From an uncultured Methanomicrobiales archaeon (GTDB taxonomy: Archaea > Halobacteriota > Methanomicrobia > Methanomicrobiales > Methanospirillaceae): a stretch of DNA of 37,396 nucleotides. The stretch covers positions 1 through 37,396 of the forward strand of contig CAIKOD010000116.1 in NCBI GenBank assembly GCA_903828975.1. The letters run 5' to 3'. Under the pieces are notes generated by a model. That model was not told where the DNA came from. It saw only the letters and a list, made by a program, of their open reading frames with translations, and ran no database searches. Of this stretch, positions 4,815-34,984 are shown in pieces. The translations under genes and the position numbers were made by a program. The number at the start of each line of letters is the position of its first letter. Positions within the stretch are counted from its first letter, which is position 1.

Positions 4815-5912
4815 TTATCTGGGGATCGGCTCCCACCGAGACGTTAATTCTTTCTCTACCGCGGGAAGGGTCGTGTATTCCATCTCATCAAGAGAGAGCC
4901 GGTGGGGTTCGAAGGGGCCATGCGCACGGATCAAATCGGCCAGGTCATTGCACCGGCCCCGGACCCGGTCAAAGGCCGGGTCATCAAACATGTCAGCCGG
5001 GCCTGTCAGCGCGCCATTGCAGAGCTGGAAGCCGAGGCAGACAACTCTTGGCGGGCCATCGAACCTGGTACAGTTTGCATCGCACAGGCCGACCGGCATG
5101 AAGGGCCCGTGGTGTGAACCCCGCATCCATCCTGCCACCAGTACCGGCGTACAGAACGGTTCAATTACTTCCCCGACAGCGGGAAAACCGCTCTGGGAAC
5201 GGACGATCATGACCGGGTCATCCTTCCCGATGTACCTCCCTGCCATCATGTTCAGGCGCTGGGTGCTGGTCGATGCCGCGATCACCCCCTCTTTCCTGAA
5301 CACATGCTTAATCACATACCGCGATGGTGCGCCGATGTATACCAGGAGACTGTAGATCTCTTCAGGGCACGAAAACATGATCATACGTTTTTCGATGAGA
5401 TCGTGGACCTCAAAGACAAATCCCTTGTGCATTGAGGGATCAATGACGAGCCCGGGCGTGTTGAACGGATCGGCAAAGATCTTATAGAGGAAGAAGTTCC
5501 ATGCACCGGGTTCTGTTTTATCTGCCATAAAGACCAGCACGGGATCACTGCCCCGCTCCTCGAACTCCATCTCGGCAACACCGGGCCCCATCCCCTTAAC
5601 ATTACCTGAAAAGGCATCTGCGAGCATATCCTGTCCCGCACCATAGAGTTTCATGCTTTTTGCAATCGCTGTGCACTCCATGAATACCTCCCATGCGAGC
5701 TTGTGGACCTTTTCATTGTCCACGCCATGGGTGTGCGTCATGATCAGTTCGAGGTCATCGCCGCAGTGGGTGACAAACGAGTCGATCAGCAGTTTGCCTT
5801 CCTGCTCTTTGAGCAACCTGGCTGCCTTCTCCAGGAGCTTCGGGTGGGTGCGGGAGTGCCCGGGAAAACTTCCCACATCTGCTTTTATAACGGAAATCGT
5901 GGTTTTAGGCAT
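4815..5912 (-). CDS. fbp: Bifunctional fructose-1,6-bisphosphate aldolase/phosphatase (FBPA/P)
   Basis: A 365-residue class V FBPase, the ancestral archaeal gluconeogenic enzyme. It condenses dihydroxyacetone phosphate and glyceraldehyde-3-phosphate to FBP and dephosphorylates it to fructose-6-phosphate, using Mg2+. Visible signatures are the N-terminal DVGSFPGHSRTHP, HCGDDLELIMTHTHG, and RYIGKDDPV, in which Tyr227 and Lys230 match the aldolase Tyr and Schiff-base Lys; Tyr346 in MEYTTLP matches the phosphatase-state Tyr. Full length. It is the last of three minus-strand genes (class I FBPase, class II aldolase, this), 54 bp after the aldolase, so it may also have its own promoter. No clear Shine-Dalgarno is seen. 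It acts in the cytoplasm. Confidence 0.95.
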   Translation of the reverse strand: MPKTTISVIKADVGSFPGHSRTHPKLLEKAARLLKEQEGKLLIDSFVTHCGDDLELIMTHTHGVDNEKVHKLAWEVFMECTAIAKSMKLYGAGQDMLADAFSGNVKGMGPGVAEMEFEERGSDPVLVFMADKTEPGAWNFFLYKIFADPFNTPGLVIDPSMHKGFVFEVHDLIEKRMIMFSCPEEIYSLLVYIGAPSRYVIKHVFRKEGVIAASTSTQRLNMMAGRYIGKDDPVMIVRSQSGFPAVGEVIEPFCTPVLVAGWMRGSHHGPFMPVGLCDANCTRFDGPPRVVCLGFQLCNGALTGPADMFDDPAFDRVRGRCNDLADLIRAHGPFEPHRLSLDEMEYTTLPAVEKELTSRWEPIPR

Positions 5913-5966
5913 AAAGGATTCACACTATAGAATCTCTTTACAGGAGAAAAAAATTGTGGTGAATAG

Positions 5967-7106
5967 TTAAGACATATTTTTTCGCACAAGTGAAGCTGAC
6001 CCGTACGAGCTGAATGCTTTGAAAAATATAAGGCTTTCAGCATATGCCATCGCCTGGATCGCCTTTTCTGTATCTTTGTTAACGGTATAAATTTCGCTGA
6101 AAAACTCCTTAATTGCAAATTTGCAGTTGCCATCAACGATCTGCCTGTCCGATTTACCAGGGTTTGCAGCCCGGTATTTCTCAAGTGTCCATTCCTGGAT
6201 GTCCTTGTAGAGTCCGGGTTCGTATACCTTGAAGGTGTCCAAAACAACGTCCTGCCAGAAGGTCCCGACATTTCCCTTAATAATATCCCCTTTCGGGAAA
6301 TGCTGGTTAATGAGGTCACGGGGTGTGCCGGTAATACCATGCTGGGCGATACCAACATTCAGCTTATTGTCCCGGAGTGCTTTTGCGACCGCCTTTGTCT
6401 GTGGGATATCGATCGAAAGCTGCTCGACCACGTTCCCTTTATCATCATATACGTGACCATGCGTGCTCCCATTGGCAATCGCAAGAACGTGGGGGTATAC
6501 TTCATTCGTGTGTAAGGATTTGATGAACTCAACAGCTTCCTCGGGCGTGGTCAGGACCAGGCCATGCCCGTCTTTTCTCCCGATCTCCCCCACTTCCACT
6601 TCAAGGCCGAAGTCCTCCCCTTTCATTCTCTTCTTAATGTAGTGCGCCAGCTCTGTTGTGACCTGGATATTCTTTTCCAGCTCTTCCCTGACATTTTTTC
6701 CTTCAAAATTAAACAGGTGCGAGGCATCGATGGCAAAAGAAGTATACCCGGCGGTGACCTGGGCATCGATCAACAGCCTTGTCTGCTCGATCTCCGTTGC
6801 ATCACCGTTCTTAATCGTGATATGATCTGCATGAAGGGCCCAGATATCAAACTTCACCTCCTCCGCTGCTTCGCGGATTCTCTTCCCGAAATCCTTCGGT
6901 GTTAATCCTGTATACCCACCTTTCAGGTCACATTCAGAACGTGCGAGTTCCATAAATACGGCAGAATCTGTATCTTTTGCGGCCTGGAAAATTCCCTTTG
7001 CAACAGTAGTAATCCGCGTGTTCGCTGCCATTATTATTGCTTTCCGGCCTGAAATACCTTTAAAAATTGTTGAACCAGAGATTGGACCATAATCTTCCTG
7101 TTTCAT
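5967..7106 (-). CDS. Class II fructose-bisphosphate aldolase-like protein
   Basis: A 379-residue TIM-barrel aldolase of the zinc-dependent class II family (COG0191), predicted to catalyse FBP cleavage or condensation. Visible family blocks, in order: GLTPKDFGKRI, DIWALHADHIT (residues 88-97, metal-binding His), GLEVEVGEIGRKDG, HVLAIANGSTHGHVYD (metal His), VGIAQHGITGTPRDL (metal His) and IIKGNVGTFWQDVVLD. It is divergent from E. coli FbaA, so the sugar-phosphate substrate (fructose-, tagatose- or another bisphosphate) is uncertain. An ATG at 7106 preceded by GGAG is preferred over the GTG at 7118. It lies 22 bp downstream of the class I FBPase gene in the same direction; sharing a transcript supports FBP as substrate. 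Confidence 0.82.
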   Translation of the reverse strand: MKQEDYGPISGSTIFKGISGRKAIIMAANTRITTVAKGIFQAAKDTDSAVFMELARSECDLKGGYTGLTPKDFGKRIREAAEEVKFDIWALHADHITIKNGDATEIEQTRLLIDAQVTAGYTSFAIDASHLFNFEGKNVREELEKNIQVTTELAHYIKKRMKGEDFGLEVEVGEIGRKDGHGLVLTTPEEAVEFIKSLHTNEVYPHVLAIANGSTHGHVYDDKGNVVEQLSIDIPQTKAVAKALRDNKLNVGIAQHGITGTPRDLINQHFPKGDIIKGNVGTFWQDVVLDTFKVYEPGLYKDIQEWTLEKYRAANPGKSDRQIVDGNCKFAIKEFFSEIYTVNKDTEKAIQAMAYAESLIFFKAFSSYGSASLVRKNMS

Positions 7107-7128
7107 AAGACTTCCCACTCCTGTTTAC

Positions 7129-8034
7129 TTACCCGTGTGTCATAAACTTTTCAATCATCGCGATCTCTTTCAATCCACCAATGTAGATGGGTGTAATCTC
7201 ACCGATTGATTTCGGTGTAATATCCAGAATATCTGTGTACCCGTTACTGATTGCCCCTCCTGCTTCCCGGATAATCTTCCCCATCGGGTTTGCCTCGTAT
7301 AACAGCCTCAACTTTCCGTTTTCCTTATTTTTGAAACCCGGGTACGTGAATACCCCTCCCTTGTGAAGGATCTGGTGTACATCTGCAACAAAACATCCGC
7401 TAAACCGGAGTTTATACCCTGCAGCTTCAAGTCCCTCAATAAACCGTGCGTGAGCTGGCAGGTAATCCCTTCTCAGGGCACCGGGTGCGTAAATTTTCCC
7501 ATCAGGGATTTTAATATCCTGTTGTTTAAGAAAAAATTCATCGGTTTCATCCAGGACAAATTCGTGGACTCCCTTTCCTGCTGTATACGTCAGTGTGGTA
7601 AGGGGGCCATACAGGATATACATTGCAGCGACCATTTTTGCTCCCATCTCGAGAACATGCCCGGGATAGATACCAATGATTGACCCTACACAAAGGTTCA
7701 CATCAATAAGGGATGATCCATCCAGCGGATCGATGACAACCCCGAATTCGCTTTTCGGGTTCCCGACTTCAATGATCGTCTCTTGTTCTTCCGTGGCGAT
7801 ATACCGGGCAAGCCGCGTCTTCCTCAACCCTGAAATGAATATCTCGTCGGCATATTTATCCAGGGGCATCTGCTCTTCGCCGTACATATTCTGTGTCTTT
7901 TCATCTGCAGGTGATTTCCTGGCCGTGGAGAGAAATCCTTTCTTCACCGACCGGGCTTCCCTGCTGAAAAAGAGAATTAATTCCGCCAGGTTTTTTTCTG
8001 TCCCTGCACCGTCAAGGAATTCTTTGAGTATCAT
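7129..8034 (-). CDS. fbp: Class I fructose-1,6-bisphosphatase
   Basis: A 301-residue bacterial/eukaryotic-type FBPase (inositol-phosphatase fold) converting FBP to fructose-6-phosphate and phosphate. Diagnostic features are TEEQE (residues 81-85) and [10 protein letters not shown] (residues 99-108), the Mg2+-binding core, then [24 protein letters not shown] and [12 protein letters not shown], a sugar-phosphate-binding region. Slightly shorter than typical 330-residue enzymes. GAGGAAGG precedes the ATG. It is the first gene of the FBPase-aldolase-FBPA/P cluster. The presence of this type in an archaeon that already has FBPA/P suggests acquisition by transfer, with a specialised role such as the ribulose-bisphosphate (RHP) cycle; that role is inference. 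Confidence 0.94.
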
Positions 8035-12271: not shown

Positions 12272-12654
12272 ACTTGGTATAAGAAATTGTTTGAGTCTGC
12301 TTAAAAGATGTCGCTGTGACAGGCTGGCAGGTACTTCAGTAAACCACTCGGTCAGCCAGCACAGGAACGCCGGAAATGGTTTTATACCTGGTCAGGGCGG
12401 TTCCTGATCACCACGTGCACATCCGGAAGAGGCAGGAAAGGGGACATTTCCGTTCGTTTAGTCCTCCGTTATCAGGCATAGGTACTTATGTAAACCCGCG
12501 GGGCAGGCCCGGAATATATTTCTACACTATTTGTCGTGGTTTTTGTCAGGACTCCCGGTGGTTATATTGTGCAGTTATGAACTTTTCAGTGGAAATCCGG
12601 TGAGTATGCAGGAATAGTTTTTTGGGTGAAAAACCAAAAGGAGTTACACTGCAT
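12272..12654. other. Intergenic region with probable divergent promoters
   Basis: It separates the minus-strand cyclo-ligase from the plus-strand phosphoribulokinase gene. I see no convincing gene. TATA-like stretches are TTTTATACC near 12380 and GGTTATATTG near 12560; the latter could serve phosphoribulokinase. AAAAGGAG at 12636-12643 is the probable ribosome-binding site for the ATG at 12655. Confidence 0.4.
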
Positions 12655-13722
12655 ATGCACACTCAGGGTTTAAAGGAAATAATTGCGGCGACCCCCTATA
12701 TTTTTACCATTGGCGTTGCAGGAGACAGCGGTTCTGGCAAAACAACATTTACGCAAGGTATACGGAGTATTTTTGGCAGCGAGCTAGTCTCCACGATAAC
12801 ACTCGATGATTACCACCGGTACGACCGGGAAGAACGAAAGAAGCTGGGAATTACGGCCCTTAACCCTGCTGCAAACCGTATTGACCAGCTTGAATCGGAC
12901 CTTGGCAGGCTGAAACAGGGAATGCCGGTTGATAAACCGGTATACAACCACGACACAGGAACATTTGATCAGCCGGTCACGTTCATACCCAAAAAAATCC
13001 TTCTCCTTGAAGGCCTGCATACGTTTTTTACCCCCGCAGTCCGTGAAAATCTCGACTTTTTGCTGTTTGTGGACCCCGCACCGGAGGTGAAGTATGACTG
13101 GAAGGTAAAGCGGGACATTAACAAACGCGGATATTCAGCAGCTGATGTGAAGAGGCATATTGAGGAGCGCAAACCTGATTATGAACGCTATATTGCTCCC
13201 CAGAAACAATATGCAGATGCAATAATCGGGATTGATTATTCAGAGTACGGCCGTGGCCTCGGTGAGGAGCGCAATGTTTACCGGGTAACCCTTTCCCAGA
13301 ACCGGATGAAACACAGCATCAAGGACATTGATCTTTCGCTCGACCTGTATTCCATCCTGTCGCTGTCAGAACGGGACTTTTCGCTTAAATTTGCGACAGG
13401 GGTCCAATACGGGCAGCGGATGGGAGAACTTATTATTGATGGCGAACTGTCTGAACACGTCGTAAAAAAACTTGAACGCAGCATTGAACACCAGACTAAA
13501 GTGCGCCCGATCTCTATGTTTAAGGACCGTGAATATGTGACAGCGGTAGATTTGATCCAGCTGATAATCAGCTGGCGGATCATCCATCGCAGGATTTTCC
13601 TGGAGATCAGCAGGGAATGCCACCCGGCAGACACCGGGGCCGGGGAAAATGCCATGACCTGTGAGTGGAAAAGAACTGGTACCACCGGTGAAAAGTTCTG
13701 GAACAACCGCCATTCAACCTGA
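12655..13722 (+). CDS. prk: Archaeal phosphoribulokinase (PRK)
   Basis: A 355-residue P-loop kinase predicted to phosphorylate ribulose-5-phosphate to ribulose-1,5-bisphosphate, the RuBisCO substrate. Walker A is GVAGDSGSGKTT (residues 20-31). DDYHRYDREER (51-61) carries the catalytic Asp and substrate-binding residues, NPAANRIDQL follows, and KPVYNHDTGTF (94-104) is the conserved PRK block; KKILLLEGLHTF is the Walker B-like strand. The uridine-kinase/PRK superfamily includes uridine kinases, but the YDREERKKLGITALNPAANR region and length fit PRK. An ATG preceded by AAAAGGAG is preferred over a TTG at 12622 that adds 11 residues. The last 25 residues are polar and probably flexible. Archaeal PRKs of this type were shown in Methanospirillum to feed a RuBisCO-dependent reductive hexulose-phosphate pathway. 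Confidence 0.86.
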   Translation: MHTQGLKEIIAATPYIFTIGVAGDSGSGKTTFTQGIRSIFGSELVSTITLDDYHRYDREERKKLGITALNPAANRIDQLESDLGRLKQGMPVDKPVYNHDTGTFDQPVTFIPKKILLLEGLHTFFTPAVRENLDFLLFVDPAPEVKYDWKVKRDINKRGYSAADVKRHIEERKPDYERYIAPQKQYADAIIGIDYSEYGRGLGEERNVYRVTLSQNRMKHSIKDIDLSLDLYSILSLSERDFSLKFATGVQYGQRMGELIIDGELSEHVVKKLERSIEHQTKVRPISMFKDREYVTAVDLIQLIISWRIIHRRIFLEISRECHPADTGAGENAMTCEWKRTGTTGEKFWNNRHST

Positions 13723-33461: not shown

Positions 33462-33667
33462 TATCCTTTTTACATATCATTTTTATTATTTTAGTAGATT
33501 TATAGAAATATCCTTCCTGTATCCGGCATTATACTTTTTCCCGGTCAATCAGCGATCTGCACAGCTGGTGGCAGTGGCAGACAGAAACATTTAATACAGA
33601 GATACATGATTAATTCCTTACCAACCAGTTGCTGATATGGCAATTAGGTTTTTTTGGGGTATATTTC
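33462..33667. promoter_or_regulatory. AT-rich divergent promoter region
   Basis: It lies between EndoQ (minus) and the secreted protein gene (plus). TATA-like sites on the plus strand are GATTTATAGAAAT near 33498 and ACATTTAATAC near 33588. GGGGT about nine bases before ATG 33668 is a possible ribosome-binding site. No gene is seen. Confidence 0.4.
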
Positions 33668-34984
33668 ATGGATAGAGGAACGGGTTTAAGAGCTCTGGGT
33701 ATTCTGACGCTTATTTTGTGTATTGCAATCCTCGGTTCACTGGTATCGGGGAGTAATGCCATATTCATGAACACCGGTTCAGATTCAGGGGGATTTGTGT
33801 CCAGTTCGGACAGCAGGTCAGCATTTCTGGACAGCGGGAGCAGTTCGGGATATGGCAAGTCGATATTTCTGAGCGGTGGGAGCGGTTCAAGGTATGGCGG
33901 GTCGATATTTCTGAGCAGTGGGAGCAGTTCAAGGTATGGCAGGTCAGCATTTCTGGGCAGTGGGAGCGGTTCAAGGTATGGCAGGTCAATATTTCTGAGC
34001 AGTGGGAGCAGTTCAAGGTATGGCAGGTCGATATTCAATTTCACAATCCCTACAACAATACCAACCACCCAGCCAACAACAGTACCGACAACGGTACCAA
34101 CGACCCAGCCACAGATTACTGCCGCACCTGCACATCCCGTGAAATTAATATTTGTTCATCACTCATCGGGAGAGAACTGGCTTTCGGATGATAACGGGGG
34201 TTTGGGAATTGCACTGATGAACAACAACTACTTTGTCAGTGACACCAATTACGGCTGGGGCCCAGAGATCGAAGGACTAGGACCGATCGGTGATTATACC
34301 GATATCGGGAACTGGTGGCTCTGGTTCCGGTCCCCGCAGTCAGGTGAAGTGATATCTGCGCTCTACTATGAGAGCGGTCAGAATGCAGCATATTCGAGAC
34401 TGGCGGAAAACCCTGGTACAAAGAACCAGATTATTATGATCAAATCATGTTTTCCGAATTCCAATCTCCTTGGGTCGGCCGGTGATCCCGTTTCCTCCAT
34501 CGGAAGCAATCCGTTGAGGGGCCAGGACAGCAGCTCCGAGTACCATACGATAGCGAATGCAAAAGGGATCTATATAGATCTCCTGGAATTTTTTAGAGCC
34601 CATCAGGACACGCTCTTTGTCGTGGTGACTGCCCCACCAGTGAGCGACAGTACTCACGCCGCGAACGCGAGAGCCTTCAACAACTGGCTTGTCAATGAAT
34701 GGCTCAGGGATTACCCGTATCAGAATGTCATGGTATTTGATTTCTATAATGTGCTGACGAGCAACAGCGGCAGCAATAGTGTCAATGACGCCACTTCAGC
34801 CGGTGGTAATCACCATCGCTTCTGGAACGGGCAGATCCAGCATGTCATCGGGGTTAACCGTGACACATCGGCGTATGCCCTCTCCTTATCGGACGATCAC
34901 CCGTCTGCGGCCGGCAACAGGAAAGCAACCATTGAATTCGTGCCTTTACTGAATATAGCCTATAACCGGTGGCATGGAGGATAA
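33668..34984 (+). CDS. Secreted SGNH-hydrolase-like protein with 14-residue tandem repeats
   Basis: A 438-residue exported protein. Signal peptide/anchor at residues 6-30 (GLRALGILTLILCIAILGSL). Residues 51-120 are five tandem 14-residue repeats of the type SIFLSSGSSSRYGR (42 bp each, 33818-34027). A Pro/Thr linker (TIPTTIPTTQPTTVPTTVP) runs to about 150. The C-terminal domain has IFVHHSSGENWLSDDNGGLG, DTNYGWGPE, IGDYTDIGNWWLWF, IMIKSCFPNS, VVVTAPPVS and LSDDHPSAAGN, the blocks of a GDSL/SGNH-like hydrolase (Ser 166/167, His 411), though the usual DxxH reads SDDH. The substrate is unknown; surface polysaccharide deacylation is possible. Upstream is AT-rich; a palindrome terminator follows. 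Confidence 0.8.
   Translation: MDRGTGLRALGILTLILCIAILGSLVSGSNAIFMNTGSDSGGFVSSSDSRSAFLDSGSSSGYGKSIFLSGGSGSRYGGSIFLSSGSSSRYGRSAFLGSGSGSRYGRSIFLSSGSSSRYGRSIFNFTIPTTIPTTQPTTVPTTVPTTQPQITAAPAHPVKLIFVHHSSGENWLSDDNGGLGIALMNNNYFVSDTNYGWGPEIEGLGPIGDYTDIGNWWLWFRSPQSGEVISALYYESGQNAAYSRLAENPGTKNQIIMIKSCFPNSNLLGSAGDPVSSIGSNPLRGQDSSSEYHTIANAKGIYIDLLEFFRAHQDTLFVVVTAPPVSDSTHAANARAFNNWLVNEWLRDYPYQNVMVFDFYNVLTSNSGSNSVNDATSAGGNHHRFWNGQIQHVIGVNRDTSAYALSLSDDHPSAAGNRKATIEFVPLLNIAYNRWHGG
33818..34027 (+). repeat. Five 42-bp in-frame tandem repeats
   Basis: Units begin at 33818, 33860, 33902, 33944 and 33986, each encoding 14 residues ending in SxYGx. The third and fifth units (33902 and 33986) are identical at protein level (SIFLSSGSSSRYGR). 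A sixth, truncated unit (SIF) starts at 34028. The DNA keeps GGGAGC-GGTTCAAGGTATGG in most units, so recent expansion by slippage or unequal crossover is likely. Confidence 0.85.

Follow-up and report, generated by a model that had tools for sequence, protein, structure and literature searches.

The window, by which we mean the whole 37,396-nucleotide stretch of DNA analyzed here, corresponds to contig C116 in a draft genome of 2.58 Mb (97.8% complete) from an organism that, judging from its relatives, is probably a methanogen. On the + strand, an open reading frame extends from an ATG at 12655 to a TGA at 13720-13722 and encodes a protein of 355 amino acids. We assign this feature (12655..13722) to archaeal phosphoribulokinase (PRK), specifically the A-type of Methanoregulaceae, based on NCBIfam model NF005655, the solved structure 5B3F and the substrate residues. 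The product of PRK, ribulose-1,5-bisphosphate (RuBP), is the substrate of the CO2-fixing enzyme RuBisCO. An alternative start, a TTG at 12622, lies within the same open frame; we took the ATG as the start because a GGAG, the likely ribosome-binding site (12640..12643, + strand), is situated just 5' of it and because homology begins at the ATG. GGAG is also found upstream of the ATG at the related locus L009. The sequence-only reading had placed a PRK gene with three motif blocks at exactly these positions, and all three blocks are present in the translation: the P-loop GDSGSGKTT, DDYHRYDREER and KPVYNHDTG.

The protein belongs to Pfam superfamily PF00485, whose fold PRK has in common with uridine kinase (Udk), and NCBIfam uridine kinase models do match it, as would be expected of a uridine kinase, or another P-loop nucleoside or sugar kinase, mistaken for PRK. 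However, both matches fall well below their cut-offs (103 bits against 180, and 98 bits against 220), whereas the phosphoribulokinase model NF005655 scores 300 bits (cut-off 236). Similarly, the top match among solved structures was 5B3F, the PRK of Methanospirillum hungatei (Mhun_0794; E 7.5e-99, 334 bits, 313 columns without gaps), compared with only 74 bits for the highest-scoring uridine kinase chain. We also mapped onto the protein the residues involved in ribulose-5-phosphate (Ru5P) and ATP binding in the M. hungatei enzyme (His55, Arg59, Arg62, Tyr98, His100, Lys151 and Arg154; Kono et al. 2017, PMC5241800). We found that all seven are kept (H54, R58, R61, Y97, H99, K150 and R153) and that the P-loop is intact. 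The seven residues are identical in every archaeal PRK compared and in cyanobacterial PRK, whereas E. coli uridine kinase differs at several of them. The model scores and substrate residues rule out a uridine kinase, and there is hardly any chance that a P-loop kinase of this general kind was misread. The window gene is a real archaeal PRK, of an already known kind, in agreement with the identity proposed earlier.

The match to M. hungatei PRK leaves about half of the residues different, and the window protein carries an additional C-terminal tail (about residues 319-355; 13609..13719, + strand) that is not conserved: relatives end at or shortly after residue 318, and we found a counterpart of these ~37 residues in no relative compared. 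At L009, the stop codon in the tail region is shifted because of a deletion where that sequence diverges. Cyanobacterial and plant-type Calvin PRKs (e.g. 6GVE) resemble the window protein in the kinase domain (about 200 residues at 183 bits) and have the same substrate residues, but the match is restricted to the N-terminal domain.

A search of genome contigs found only two close relatives. The window PRK has 87% identity with the protein of the Methanoregulaceae MAG Prado136 and 84% with that of a Lac Pavin MAG. In a full tree, the window protein fell within an A-type clade (n=10, support 100/98); the same family has a distinct B-type clade (n=8, support 100/100). With all outgroups included, however, the full tree placed two of them among the archaeal rows: a cyanobacterial PRK sequence that is partial, and the uridine kinase of E. 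coli, which has a long branch. We treated this placement as an artefact of partial and long rows and therefore repeated the tree on the kinase domain alone. There, a moderately supported split (82/87) divided all 14 archaeal PRKs, that of M. hungatei among them, from the bacterial PRKs and uridine kinase. Thus, the window protein groups with archaeal PRKs, including the M. hungatei enzyme; the grouping with uridine kinases that would have counted against the sequence-only reading failed to appear. Four Methanoregulaceae genomes (G085, G093, G125 and G140; loci L073-L077 and L090-L092) contain both PRK types, and the substrate residues are intact in their A and B copies, the exception being G125, whose A copy is split between frames. 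We found no mention of two PRK lineages in Methanoregulaceae in the literature searched.

The sequence-only reading had further proposed a reductive hexulose-phosphate (RHP) pathway whose RuBisCO and Hps/Phi lay outside the window. We found these components on other contigs of the same genome, which is therefore not a genome without RuBisCO. The RuBisCO gene is located on contig C181; its product is type III-like, scoring 431 bits, below the type III model cut-off of 497, with form III enzymes as its best structure matches. Contig C80 encodes 6-phospho-3-hexuloisomerase (Phi), the sole Phi over cut-off found in the genome. Three OMPdecase-fold matches are present, among them one Fae-Hps fusion and one Hps-RraA fusion, both over equivalog cut-offs. 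In contrast, the transketolase N-domain (PF00456) and ribulose-phosphate epimerase (PF00834) gave no match in this 97.8% complete genome, although most control genomes were positive. The Calvin cycle, of which cyanobacterial and plant-type PRKs are part, is ruled out by the failure to find these two regeneration enzymes. Because RuBisCO, Phi and the Hps fusions are present and transketolase and epimerase were not found, we assign the gene set to the RHP pathway.

The genome also contains the complete set for the AMP (pentose bisphosphate) pathway known from Thermococcus kodakarensis: AMP phosphorylase (712 bits), ribose-1,5-bisphosphate isomerase (over cut-off, directly upstream of RuBisCO) and RuBisCO. 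That pathway needs no PRK, whereas the window genome has PRK too. Since AMP phosphorylase and ribose-1,5-bisphosphate isomerase are also encoded, PRK is not the sole predicted source of RuBP but one of two. The same combination occurs in M. hungatei, in which RuBisCO, Phi, Fae-Hps and Hps-RraA/MenG accompany PRK and a second RuBP supply comes from nucleotides. Kono et al. (2017, PMC5241800) described the M. hungatei PRK enzyme, its structure and the RHP pathway, reported the assayed PRK to be Ru5P-specific, and already stated the double RuBP supply. They also found that M. hungatei Phi-a and Phi-b are active only in combination; unlike M. hungatei, the window genome yielded one Phi. The form III-a and III-b clades are labelled differently in the text and in a figure legend of that paper.

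We surveyed 150 genomes of the order, 109 of which were good (>=90% complete, <=5% contaminated). PRK was found in 93 of the 109 good genomes, RuBisCO in 108 and AMP phosphorylase, as at least a partial match, in all 109. Side-by-side comparison of the tables showed that the good genomes without PRK do have RuBisCO and that the majority of them come from one genus, g24. PRK is therefore common in the order but not required for the retention of RuBisCO. The window gene extends a published story, PRK and RuBisCO occurring together in most of the order's genomes. Genus g24 (e.g. G024, L138), whose well-covered genomes contain RuBisCO and AMP phosphorylase but lack PRK, is a natural point of comparison for RuBisCO in the absence of PRK.

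We also observed two RuBisCO types in the order, about 39-40% identical to each other (L001 versus L053, L056 and L134). In most cases examined, the gene for ribose-1,5-bisphosphate isomerase lies upstream of that for the short type, which is 399 aa long in the window genome; the longer type scores above the type III cut-off. PRK co-occurs with both.

On the - strand of the window, 4.6 kb from PRK, lies a block of three genes: a class I-type fructose-1,6-bisphosphatase (FBPase; 7129..8034; PF00316 and PF18913 over cut-off, NCBIfam class 1 models below), a divergent class II-type fructose-bisphosphate aldolase (5967..7118; PF01116 at 104 bits, cut-off 25.5, with all NCBIfam aldolase models below) and a bifunctional FBP aldolase/phosphatase (4815..5912; NF041126 at 590 bits, cut-off 520). 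The FBPase/aldolase cluster noticed about 4 kb from PRK is thus real. Because PRK and the block are on opposite strands, they do not form one operon. The three genes adjoin one another (4815-8034) and appear redundant; several relatives share this gene order.

The genomes of relatives place this block in a larger setting and support the link to the PRK pathway that had been drawn from it. The A-type PRK of G093, G085, G140 and G125 is one of a row of genes, namely GlgP and, beyond it, GH57, glycosyltransferase, PRK, PFK, cupin GPI, FBPase, aldolase and FBP aldolase/phosphatase, such that the block is part of a glycogen cluster. In G121, which belongs to the same genus as the window organism, GH57 and two glycosyltransferases stand ahead of a glycogen debranching enzyme, which PRK follows without any gap; the other flank carries a divergent GlgP, 5-formyl-THF cyclo-ligase, a VCP-like ATPase, Hsp20, FBPase, aldolase and FBP aldolase/phosphatase. 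The window and Prado136 have a G121-like row, but the cyclo-ligase gene adjoins PRK and the genes from GlgP through the debranching enzyme are missing. Comparison of the window with L009 and L139 placed this junction at 12272..12654; in relatives, this position holds GlgP, GH57, two glycosyltransferases and the debranching enzyme. L009, an independent MAG, has the window's junction and likewise no polysaccharide genes there, while the relatives' cluster is seen at L116, L117, L118, L119 and L139. Orthologues of GH57, the first glycosyltransferase and GlgP were found nowhere in the whole window genome (best match 29%), and neither was a PFK. G059 and G011 retain parts of the glycogen row around their A-type PRK, the A-type locus of G109 shares PFK only, and that of G097 shares none of the cluster neighbours. 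None of the 6 B-type loci examined had glycogen or hexose-phosphate neighbours.

The simplest reading of these data is that an ancestral glycogen/hexose-phosphate cluster held the A-type PRK, and that the window lineage deleted the polysaccharide part and kept PRK. Because the cluster-bearing genomes are mutually related, they are not independent witnesses. The linkage in gene order suggests, without proving, that the window-type PRK was once tied to the use of stored hexose. The presence of close relatives' PRK inside a glycogen-metabolism cluster, and the loss of that cluster from the window genome, is the apparently new detail here. We found no paper on such a cluster with PRK in methanogens among titles and abstract openings of the open-licence literature. 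Kono et al. (2017, PMC5241800) include Methanoregula boonei in a figure legend, leave paralogues unmentioned in the main text, and contain the word 'glycogen' in the reference list only; Anderson et al. (2009, PMC2686161), who deal with both glycogen and phosphofructokinase in this order, do not mention PRK.

We conclude that the window gene very probably encodes a working archaeal PRK within the RHP pathway. The basis for this conclusion is gene identity, residue conservation, gene complement, phylogeny and synteny, from which we infer activity, flux and the direction of flux. PRK would phosphorylate ribulose-5-phosphate to RuBP, which the genome's RuBisCO would carboxylate to 3-phosphoglycerate. 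Gluconeogenesis, including the FBPase/aldolase block of the window, would carry 3-phosphoglycerate to fructose-6-phosphate, and Phi and the Hps fusions would convert the latter to ribulose-5-phosphate and formaldehyde, with Fae predicted to transfer the formaldehyde to methanopterin. RuBP may also be supplied from AMP by the second encoded route. The RuBisCO score below the type III cut-off, the unmatched C-terminal 37 residues and the single Phi found weigh against this reading.

The A-type gene neighbourhood raises the question of direction. A true but lineage-specialised PRK could serve sugar breakdown instead of net CO2 fixation, with stored or imported hexose passing via Hps/Phi, PRK and RuBisCO to 3-phosphoglycerate. 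In relatives, the A-type PRK, but not the B-type, lies beside glycogen phosphorylase, GH57, glycosyltransferases, debranching enzyme, PFK, GPI and FBPase. This evidence consists entirely of gene order, however, and the A-type copy of G097 is without any such neighbours. Furthermore, FBPase and FBP aldolase/phosphatase indicate gluconeogenesis, and the window genome lost the glycogen genes and PFK yet retains PRK, which argues that PRK serves RuBisCO more generally. We therefore regard hexose breakdown as the unlikely direction. The evolutionary form of this idea is similarly unlikely: a second PRK lineage, linked to glycogen, would have arisen in Methanoregulaceae and would route stored hexose via Hps/Phi, PRK and RuBisCO to 3-phosphoglycerate, and the window genome would have kept only that PRK after losing the glycogen genes. 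If it were true, archaeal RuBisCO would serve sugar breakdown. In comparison with M. hungatei, the window PRK differs in its position near an FBPase/aldolase block and in belonging to a lineage that is glycogen-linked in relatives. This synteny provides a testable idea on the purpose of archaeal PRK, and the genomes with both lineages, one of them within a glycogen cluster, could help to tell carbon fixation from the consumption of stored sugar.

The second encoded route to RuBP bears on how much PRK matters. If most RuBP came from AMP via AMP phosphorylase and ribose-1,5-bisphosphate isomerase, PRK could be a minor or decaying relic, as the AMP phosphorylase score, the isomerase gene next to RuBisCO, the retention of RuBisCO in good genomes of the order that lack PRK, and the split A-type copy of G125 would all allow. 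In contrast, the window PRK is full length with every substrate residue intact, shares 84-87% identity with the two relatives closest to it, and is accompanied by a retained Hps/Phi set, making a minor or relic role quite improbable.

Elsewhere in the window, we observed an open reading frame at 33629-34984 that encodes 451 aa, with tandem serine/glycine-rich repeats (SGSGSRYGRSIFLSS) followed by a PTTIPTTQPTTVPTT linker.
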